Assembly: GCF_030539665.1 (NCBI RefSeq)
Contig: NZ_JAUNXR010000002.1
Location: forward strand, 124,001 to 188,000
Origin: Methanobrevibacter sp.
GTDB taxonomy: Archaea > Methanobacteriota > Methanobacteria > Methanobacteriales > Methanobacteriaceae
Length of the DNA stretch: 64,000 bases
Direction of reading: 5' to 3'
Part shown: one piece after another, positions 18,298-20,791 of the stretch
How positions within the stretch are numbered: position 1 is the first letter of the stretch
Layout: each line of letters opens with the position of its first letter
Made by a program: the position numbers and the translations under genes
The notes under the pieces: generated by a model
Told to the model about the DNA's origin: nothing
Databases searched by the model: none
Seen by the model: the letters and a program-made list of their open reading frames with translations, nothing else

Positions 18298-18732
18298 TCA
18301 AGGATTGCACACTTGACATGGAATTTTGCCTGCATCAATAGCTGCCTGCCTGTTTGGGTAGGTTATCTTGTTAGAACCAGATATCTTCTTGGCCCACTCG
18401 CAGTCAGGAGAATGGAACTTGTCGGATTTCGCACTTGAAACAACCTTGGCTGAAGTTTCCACATTAGAATCCACATTTTCAACTGATGCTGAATTATCCA
18501 CTGAAGAAGTGTTGTTTTCGCCAGCAGCCAAATCATTTGAATCTGAAAAGGAAATCATGCCAGTTGCAAAAAGCCCTATGACAGCTATTGCCACAACGAT
18601 AACCACTATTGAAACGATCATCTTGCCTGAAGCCTTGCCCTTTCCTGAGCCTGAAATGTCATTGCCGCACTTGGGACAAAACTTTGAATTCTTTTTAGAC
18701 AGTTCTTGACCGCATTTCGGACAGTAATCCAT
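18298..18732 (-). CDS. Zinc-ribbon, single-membrane-span protein with C-terminal Ada-like Cys domain
   Basis: A 144-residue protein in three parts. An N-terminal zinc ribbon has the pattern CPKCGQELSKKNSKFCPKCG. A hydrophobic span follows (about residues 35-60, MIVSIVVIVVAIAVIGLFA). After a Ser/Asn-rich linker comes an outside domain with HSPDCEWAKKI and IPCQVCNP, resembling the small metal-binding Ada-type Cys domains often found on such tails. With the zinc ribbon predicted in the cytoplasm and the C-terminus outside, it could link an internal partner to the envelope. AGGTGA precedes the ATG. It lies downstream of the degenerate HsdR-like gene and upstream of ftsY. No specific function is known to me. 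Confidence 0.75.
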   Translation of the reverse strand: MDYCPKCGQELSKKNSKFCPKCGNDISGSGKGKASGKMIVSIVVIVVAIAVIGLFATGMISFSDSNDLAAGENNTSSVDNSASVENVDSNVETSAKVVSSAKSDKFHSPDCEWAKKISGSNKITYPNRQAAIDAGKIPCQVCNP

Positions 18733-18940: not shown

Positions 18941-19020
18941 ATTAAGTAGTAGATAGAAGTAGTATATAAAGGTTATGATTTGATTCCCACAATGGATTCT
19001 GGTTCCATCCATAACCTTTA
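18931..19020. repeat. Three related dyad arms around a TATA-like element
   Basis: ATCATAACC (18931-18939), TAAAGGTTATGAT (18967-18979) and CATAACCTTTA (19010-19020). The middle arm can pair with the left arm over 9 bases (18971-18979) or with the right arm over 11 bases (18967-18977), so the two pairings exclude each other. The sequence AGTATATAAAGG (18961-18972) lies between left and middle arms. This may be a protein-binding dyad flanking a promoter, or alternative RNA hairpins after the HsdR-like stop. Confidence 0.45.
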
Positions 19021-19033
19021 GGACATCAGCAGC

Positions 19034-20638
19034 TCAGTTGAGGCTGTTGAGATATTTCGAATCTATTCTGATGCAGGAATATTCCTTTAATTCAAAGCGT
19101 TCAATATCCTTTTCCTCAGCCTTTTTGCGTGAACTTGCGGTTTTATTTTTAAACGGATCGTACAGCCTGTTCAAGGTTTCCTCAGTCATTAGAAAATCCC
19201 CATCATCGAATTCCCTGAAATTTTTGGCTATTGAAAAGTATTTGGTGGCCTGCCTGTAGAACTTGGAAAACAGTTTTAAGTCATCCTCATTGTTTATTAC
19301 TGCCCTGTTCATTTCCATGTCAACAAATTTCAGGAATTCCCTTATCGAATCATTTGCAAGATTTACATAGTCCAGATAAGACCTCAATTTTGATTTTTCG
19401 TTAGGAAGATAATTGGAATATGTTTTGAGTTTTTTCCTGAGATTATTCTCTATATTTGTAAATACTACAAGATTTGCAATTTCCTTTTCCTTATGTGGCC
19501 TGTTGATGTCGGAAAGCAGATTCATGGAATTGTATAGTACCTTATGGTCCAGATAGACCGTGTTTACATTTGGCATATTGATCTTGTTGTAGTTTGGAGG
19601 CACAATCAATATATCAATTTTCCCTTTTTCAAATCGGCGATATGCATCTTCCTTGAACAATTCCAGTTCAGAGGTGGTGAAGTCAGTATTGAATTTCTTG
19701 TTGTAGTCCTTCAAAATGTATTTGGATACGAAATTTGCCACATCCACATCGGACATCACCCCACAGTTGTCATTGAATTTGGAGAGAATCGCCACCACAT
19801 TCAAGTCAGTTCCTGTTTTGATATAATCATAGTATTTCAAAATGGAGCTGACGGAATAGACCATAAACATTGCCTGAAACTTGCGGTTTTCCGTTAGCCT
19901 GTTATGATTTTCAATAATCCAGTTGCTTATCTGGCTAATCCTTTTTGGATATGACAGGAACTTTTTAGAATACTTGATGTCAGTCAGGTCATCATTGTCA
20001 AGAAATCTAACATCCATTTCAACAAGGTTGCTGTCATCCATTGCATTTTGAAGCAGATATGTTCCAACCCGCTTGTCAAAGTTATGTTTGGTTGTTCTTC
20101 CGTTAACCGCATCTTTATTGAACTTTGGCATGGATGACAATAGGTAAAACTTGGATTTTTTGAAAAAGTTCTGGATATCAGGAAAGGACTTTGAATTGAC
20201 TATGAGATTTGCATCGTCAAAGACAAAAACAATATTCTCATTGCAAAATTCTGAGAAATTCGCTGCATTTCTGTTGAAAGCGTTTCTGAAAAGAGTGTCG
20301 AAGGTAATTACAAACTTCTTGCTTCTCAATTTGTTCAAAACATCCTTGGTTGTCTTCGCCAGAGCAGGCTGATTTAAAAAAGAACTGTCATACCTGGAAG
20401 TTATCAAGATTACCTTGTCCACCTTCTTAATCTTCAAAAAGGATTGGGCTAGCCTAAGAGAAGTCAGTGAATTGCCCGAACCTGAACAGTGCCAAACATA
20501 TCCGTTTTTGCCGGCCCTATACTGATTGATCAGATTAATGATTGCTTCAATTTGATAATTCCTCAACATTACGGACAGGTTGTTGAAGATAAAGGGCTTG
20601 TTCAATTCCAATTTATAAAATATGTCAATATCCCTCAT
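19034..20638 (-). CDS. Degenerate HsdR-like helicase (probable pseudoenzyme)
   Basis: A 534-residue relative of the SF2 motor of type I restriction R subunits, lacking their N-terminal nuclease. GYVWHCSGSGNSLTSLRLAQ at 46-65 aligns with the HsdR phrase GYIWHxxGSGKTLTS, but the Walker A lysine is asparagine (GSGNS). The DEAH-like motif II is DDAN at 141-144, motif III is LSSMP instead of the usual TGTP, and motif VI is DINRPHKEK without the paired arginines. The frame is intact over 534 codons, so the losses look tolerated or selected rather than recent decay. It is inserted between prefoldin alpha and ftsY. A run of eight G residues lies about 8-15 bases before the ATG. The function is unknown. 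Confidence 0.75.
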   Translation of the reverse strand: MRDIDIFYKLELNKPFIFNNLSVMLRNYQIEAIINLINQYRAGKNGYVWHCSGSGNSLTSLRLAQSFLKIKKVDKVILITSRYDSSFLNQPALAKTTKDVLNKLRSKKFVITFDTLFRNAFNRNAANFSEFCNENIVFVFDDANLIVNSKSFPDIQNFFKKSKFYLLSSMPKFNKDAVNGRTTKHNFDKRVGTYLLQNAMDDSNLVEMDVRFLDNDDLTDIKYSKKFLSYPKRISQISNWIIENHNRLTENRKFQAMFMVYSVSSILKYYDYIKTGTDLNVVAILSKFNDNCGVMSDVDVANFVSKYILKDYNKKFNTDFTTSELELFKEDAYRRFEKGKIDILIVPPNYNKINMPNVNTVYLDHKVLYNSMNLLSDINRPHKEKEIANLVVFTNIENNLRKKLKTYSNYLPNEKSKLRSYLDYVNLANDSIREFLKFVDMEMNRAVINNEDDLKLFSKFYRQATKYFSIAKNFREFDDGDFLMTEETLNRLYDPFKNKTASSRKKAEEKDIERFELKEYSCIRIDSKYLNSLN

Positions 20639-20791
20639 CAGATACTTCCCCCCCCAAGAAAATAAGTCTTTCTCATATTGATTTTGTATATAATTAGTAA
20701 TAAATTTATTTAAAAATAGCGGGAAAAGTCCTTTGATAATGAAAAACAGTCGTTGACTAAAAAAAAGAAAAAAAAGAGAAATTAAATAAGT

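Follow-up and report, generated by a model that had tools for sequence, protein, structure and literature searches.

A motor-dead HsdR-like protein encoded between prefoldin alpha and ftsY in Methanobrevibacter

Results and Discussion

We report that a 64,000-nucleotide stretch of a Methanobrevibacter genome (hereafter the window) encodes, at positions 19034 to 20638 on the reverse strand, an HsdR-like protein of 534 residues with a dead motor. We consider it highly probable that this protein is both maintained by selection and non-catalytic. With moderate confidence, and working from sequence comparisons, we propose that it binds DNA or acts as a scaffold, without catalysis, within a system that is modular and probably defense-related.

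The window protein is an HsdR motor core without its nuclease and C-terminus

The reading frame is intact over 534 codons, from its ATG to the stop. The protein matches Pfam SWI2_SNF2 at residues 28 to 208 (4.4e-16) and T1R_D3-like at residues 252 to 394 (8.9e-11), the PADLOC REase_I model over profile positions 237 to 775 of 976 (2.9e-38) and, in the PDB, the HsdR of EcoR124I (1.3e-17), bearing out the initial annotation, which had described an intact, HsdR-like frame of 534 codons. A first RecA-like domain spans about residues 23 to 210, a second about residues 230 to 400, and a helical region about residues 400 to 525; this RecA1-RecA2-helical order is shared with EcoR124I HsdR (PDB 2w00) over residues 23 to 518. 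The sequence matches make a solid case that the protein descends from HsdR, as its motor core and helical region. No Pfam match to the HSDR_N nuclease (PF04313) was found in the protein, the frame starting at the motor and the PADLOC alignment at position 237, and the C-terminal 200 or so positions of HsdR are missing from the same profile alignment; the initial annotation mentions neither absence. In the alignment, the end of the protein falls close to the point from which its dead-motor relatives (described below) carry their C-terminal additions. Against TIGR00348 (NCBIfam) it scores 86.9 bits, versus a curated cut-off of 284.55, and a single-sequence AlphaFold2 model gave a pLDDT of 37.

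HsdR is an ATP-driven DNA translocase. For the motif comparison, homologs from 152 genomes of the class were aligned, with 37 canonical HsdRs as the reference. The Walker A lysine, DE-HR and TGTP are invariant in all 37 of these HsdRs from related genomes, and the motor region holds 101 invariant columns, of which the window protein keeps 46. At alignment column 56, lysine is found in 37/37 canonical proteins and asparagine in the window protein (GSGNS versus GSGKT; the Asn56 codon is at 20471 to 20473, reverse strand), in a paralog from the same genome and in the dead motor of genome G066. Motif II reads DDAN instead of DECH (residues 141 to 144; 20207 to 20218, reverse strand), motif III SSMP instead of TGTP (residues 168 to 171; 20126 to 20137, reverse strand) and the motif VI region SDINR instead of SRTNR (residues 376 to 380; 19499 to 19513, reverse strand). 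By residue, K56 is changed to N, E142 to D and H144/R145 to N/L in motifs I and II; T168, G169 and T170 to S, S and M in motif III; and G352/F353/D354 to K/I/N and R377 to D in motifs V and VI.

The GSGNS, DDAN and SSMP sequences of the initial annotation are confirmed by this alignment. The accompanying statement that motif VI had lost its arginines is correct for Arg377, but Arg380 stays (SDINRP), and the broader statement that all motor motifs are eroded goes a little too far, since the Q motif (LRNYQ), Asp141 and Arg380 are still present, along with Ser57. Also retained, among others, are R26, Q29, A32, the NGY at 45 to 47, G55, P171, F187, Y194, the YY at 269 and 270, I341, D364 and N389. 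With Asp141, the Q motif and Arg380 still in place, nucleotide binding is possible, while we infer from the sequence changes that ATPase activity is absent.

In comparison with an EcoR124I-type HsdR, the window protein is without the PD-(D/E)XK nuclease, the C-terminal domain, the Walker A lysine, the motif II DExH, motif III, the motif V glycine and one motif VI arginine. The features that define an HsdR, which are the nuclease, Walker A, motif II, the partners and a score above the curated cut-off, are lacking. No HsdS (Methylase_S match) was found in the window's genome, an absence that is not absolute given an assembly that is 95% complete in 13 contigs, and the linked HsdM/HsdS pair that the initial annotation suggested looking for elsewhere is not supported. 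Of the N6_Mtase matches in this genome, one is weak and the other is a type IIG-like protein, the genome's only HSDR_N/methyltransferase protein. Its gene (L107:9653-11224, forward strand) combines HSDR_N with an N6-methyltransferase and is truncated where contig C4 ends. With HsdS, the nuclease and the motor residues all missing, an active type I system was rejected.

Five dead motors form one clade and carry varied fusions

Dead motors were found in 4 of 67 genomes of the genus: the window genome (G000, two copies) and those of three other species, G066, G041 and G036. All five frames are open, encoding 534 to 1169 residues. Against about 40 other HsdR relatives they form a single clade with support of 100/99, or 99/99 when the motif columns are masked, and a placement of G041 and G036 with their nearest canonical HsdRs instead was rejected (p-AU 0.002). 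A 4-residue deletion after residue 93 is common to the clade. The branches of the dead-motor tree are long, its inner order is unsure and some long-branch attraction may be present. All five proteins are without H144 and R145 of motif II, G169 of motif III, G352 of motif V, and R377 and T378 of motif VI, and all five keep the structural invariants R26, Q29, A32, N45 G46 Y47, G55, F159, P171, F187, Y194, A199, Y269 Y270, N313, I341, D364 and N389. The Walker A lysine is still there in the G036 protein. Since the five constitute one clade, we read their history as loss of the motor followed by retention and varied domain fusions.

The paralog in the window genome (G000:C3:143959-145605, equivalent to L042:5957-7606, reverse strand) is a motor-dead protein of 549 residues in an open frame, 36% identical to the window protein over 394 residues. 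Its motifs are ASGNS, with the same lysine-to-asparagine change, DDCM and LTMP. It bears a C-terminal GIY-YIG domain in which, by inspection, the GIY, YVG, Arg, Glu and Asn signature residues are present, as in the UvrC homolog. Its gene is next to those for a triple Top1-type Zn-ribbon protein and for a 310-residue protein that matches no family, and at a distance of a few kb there is a SocA/Panacea antitoxin-like gene. The G066 dead motor, with AKGCGNS, lies in a frame of 1128 codons (L128:7476-10823, forward strand; a single chain of 1116 residues) and is joined to a DinG/XPD-type helicase that has an intact Walker A and is itself apparently intact. In G041 and G036 (1169 and 1167 residues), HSDR_N stands ahead of the dead motor, with the 'D...QIELK' pattern of the nuclease part kept by inspection, and Zn-ribbons and a HELSH metallopeptidase-like region stand behind it. 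The similarity of this C-terminal part to M78-type peptidases falls under the Pfam cut-off, so the metallopeptidase label rests on the HELSH motif. Scans of a genome-contig collection with the protein and with the two-paralog alignment gave no confirmed relatives, scans of a viral-contig collection gave no confirmed dead-motor relatives, and among plasmid and phage sequences the only matches were of the HsdR type, with identities of about 21 to 28%. We did not find a dead-motor HsdR group described in the open-access literature.

Dead motors appear to be under purifying selection

Under drift without coding constraint, the three codon positions diverge alike and stop codons appear. Between the two paralogs, identity at codon positions 1, 2 and 3 is 0.487, 0.661 and 0.352, respectively, against a composition-only expectation of 0.29, 0.31 and 0.25; second positions are the most alike and no stops have arisen. 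Synonymous divergence is saturated for this pair, and a ratio is given only for the G041/G036 pair, where the NG86 method yields a dN of 0.31 and a dS of 1.45 (dN/dS about 0.2). The second-position conservation between the paralogs and the low ratio in G041/G036 indicate that purifying selection acts on the dead motors. As the motor residues were already changed in both pairs, it is unlikely that the constraint is for ATP-driven translocation. Selection for a non-catalytic role, which had been suggested from the open frame, is supported by these measures together with the intact paralog and the single clade, and the contrary pattern, neutral dN/dS with truncated copies in sister strains, was not seen in these comparisons between species and between paralogs.

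The gene sits in a translation cluster and is absent from the same locus in relatives

The window gene has prefoldin alpha on one side and ftsY on the other, within a cluster of ribosomal-protein and translation-factor genes. In many relatives only about 120 to 260 bases separate these two, in agreement with the earlier remark that the gene parts neighbors that are usually adjacent. A second gene is also found there (18298 to 18732, reverse strand), encoding a 144-residue protein with a Zn-ribbon and one transmembrane stretch, which is a recurrent neighbor of dead-motor genes. No same-locus homolog of the window gene was found in the relatives examined; the locus of G025 is an N gap and was left out as a synteny control. 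G009, the nearest species whose locus could be read, is without the motor gene, which is therefore dispensable. In the G009 alignment, the T-rich stretch after prefoldin alpha leads directly into the promoter region of the Zn-ribbon gene, itself a frameshifted remnant in that genome. The simplest history is that the motor and Zn-ribbon genes arrived together in a common ancestor, with loss in G009; alternatively, the motor gene was inserted beside a resident Zn-ribbon gene. Directly after the motor gene, an inverted repeat (AAAGGTTATG...CATAACCTTT; 18965 to 19033, reverse strand) with a weak predicted hairpin (z = -1.66) sits at the junction with the sequence shared with G009. No integrase or obvious repeats were seen at the prefoldin-ftsY locus, and Rfam and tRNA scans of the gene flanks returned nothing of note.

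Zn-ribbon, HELSH and TRD genes recur together

The C-terminal domain of the 144-residue protein has the pattern FHxPxCEWAxKI...PCxVCNP (in shorter form, FHxPxCEWA..PCxxCNP). With full-length homologs defined by an E value below 1e-25, only 8 of the 67 genus genomes searched contain one (G000, G066, G054, G021, G036, G041, G031 and G007), while Zn-ribbon proteins of looser similarity are common. The gene directly adjoins a dead motor in three of the eight (G000, G041 and G036) and a separate HELSH gene in another three (G054, G021 and G031). This separate gene is the counterpart of the Zn-ribbon/HELSH part at the C-terminus of the G041 and G036 proteins (58 to 64% identical). Neither the GIY-YIG paralog nor the G066 dead motor is beside a full-length Zn-ribbon homolog. 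The homolog in G066 adjoins genes that resemble cas1 and cas2 by eye (L145:3212-5071).

A TRD (type I specificity) protein of 694 to 717 residues follows in G041, G036, G054 and G078, and in G054 and G078 it is adjoined by the separate HELSH gene. Two genes from the HELSH gene, G078 also encodes a stand-alone DinG-like helicase that shares 52% identity with the helicase of the G066 fusion; almost all genomes have a relative at about 47% identity, and the DinG-like helicase was rejected as a specific marker. The recurrent clusters (L129:7191-13206, L130:5564-11629, L142:4179-7930 and L146:4724-11405) have the HELSH part either alone or behind HSDR_N and a dead motor, and one has a DinG-like helicase. 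Judged by these fusions and neighborhoods, the dead motor, Zn-ribbon, HELSH and TRD proteins appear to be linked, and perhaps, as the weakest link, the DinG-like helicase as well. The Zn-ribbon/HELSH/TRD cluster is a candidate for an undescribed system; HELSH and TRD proteins were not found in the window's genome. MAD5, a subunit of MADS (methylation-associated defense system), has a weak match, far below the cut-off, to the TRD protein beside the G041 and G036 dead motors. No other MADS parts were identified, and the MAD5-like TRD protein is absent from the window's genome. The G041 dead-motor neighborhood also encodes a UvrD helicase of 1407 residues (L129:769-4989, forward strand) with a ShosT-like C-terminal part, whose best PADLOC matches are the RTasHel and GajB models.

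A non-catalytic module and its alternatives

We hypothesize that the window protein belongs to a small pseudo-enzyme family at the level of the genus, in which ATP-driven translocation was lost once, early, from an HsdR motor core that was then kept by selection. Most likely, its pair of RecA-like domains, together with the helical region, would still make up a cleft able to hold duplex DNA or to dock a partner, but with no translocation, and the dead motor would serve to place an effector. In its relatives that effector would be on the same chain, as GIY-YIG, as HSDR_N with the Zn-ribbon/metallopeptidase part, or as the DinG-like helicase. The window protein has no effector of its own and would work in trans; its partners would be the Zn-ribbon membrane protein and perhaps the GIY-YIG paralog. 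The idea of a role in defense comes from the restriction ancestry, the fused nuclease domains and the defense-like neighbors in G041, and we infer it, like DNA binding and action in trans, for the window protein. A more specific version, which we put forward only tentatively, is an undescribed, modular defense system in the gut methanogens of this genus. It would combine a dead HsdR core, clamping DNA independently of ATP, with a Zn-ribbon membrane protein and with effectors that can be exchanged (a GIY-YIG nuclease, a PD-(D/E)XK nuclease with a metallopeptidase, or a DinG-like helicase), in which the window copy would be minimal, effector-less and possibly switched by a G8 tract (described below).

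The main rival, which we regard as unlikely, is that the protein is a regulator or decoy of restriction, with the dead core binding a methyltransferase complex or the GIY-YIG paralog and blocking or tuning it in a dominant-negative manner. HsdR ancestry fits this, as does the homologous dead core joined to GIY-YIG in the same genome, and mixed assemblies of such subunits could form; however, HsdS was not found, the sole HSDR_N/methyltransferase protein is type IIG-like and at a contig end, and the C-terminal region of HsdR is missing. A decaying relic, recently inactivated, drifting and open by luck, would fit with the combined loss of the motor motifs, the nuclease and the C-terminus, and with the closest readable locus, which lacks the gene and has a frameshifted Zn-ribbon gene. 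We find this improbable in view of the five open frames of the clade, the strong codon-position bias between paralogs that both carry the motor loss, the G041/G036 ratio and the repeated fusions with intact-looking domains.

Slightly less probable again is a divergent enzyme still driven by ATP, in which the Asn56 and Asp142 variants keep weak hydrolysis. In favor of this are the retained Asp141, Q motif, Ser57 and Arg380 and the Walker A lysine of G036; against it, the lysine, glutamate, motif II His/Arg, motif III Gly/Thr, motif V Gly and motif VI Arg377 are changed at positions that never vary in canonical kin. We give least credence to the idea that the gene is selfish cargo, brought by a mobile element or genomic island and retained only because an insertion between prefoldin and ftsY does no harm: although the distribution of dead motors is patchy and relatives have no homolog at the locus, neither an integrase nor obvious repeats were seen there, no dead-motor relatives were confirmed in viral contigs, and the sequence appears to be under purifying selection.

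There are partial parallels for the non-catalytic module that we favor. RecC, which is complexed with active RecB and RecD, comes from a different helicase family than the window protein, and works within that complex; by analogy only, it resembles the dead motor in keeping an enzyme fold for a non-catalytic, DNA-related role. The nuclease-like domain of RecC is inactivated and has a novel function (PMC1185551). Hachiman HamAB would share only the idea of a helicase-fold subunit that controls a separate nuclease; HamB requires its helicase activity (PMC12278908), unlike the proposed dead motor. If dead motors are selected, monophyletic and recombined with effectors, they would demonstrate that the subunits of restriction enzymes can be redeployed as scaffolds without catalysis. 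They offer concrete genes for probing the motor fold without the motor, and indicate a candidate defense-like module in methanogens.

A G8 tract precedes the window gene

A G8 homopolymer lies 10 to 17 nucleotides upstream of the start codon (20648 to 20655, reverse strand). The 1.62 Mb genome has two G8 tracts, and two or three are expected from base composition, so their rarity is not significant by itself. An upstream ATG at 20676 (reverse strand) opens a frame that reads across the tract and ends at a TGA overlapping the start codon (TGATG). Since this frame crosses the tract, tract length is predicted to set whether the two frames join, and the G8 before the window gene is possibly a length-variable site. 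The other tract, inside an adhesin-like gene (G000:C1:39701-39708; L131:3202), is plausibly a length-variable site as well.
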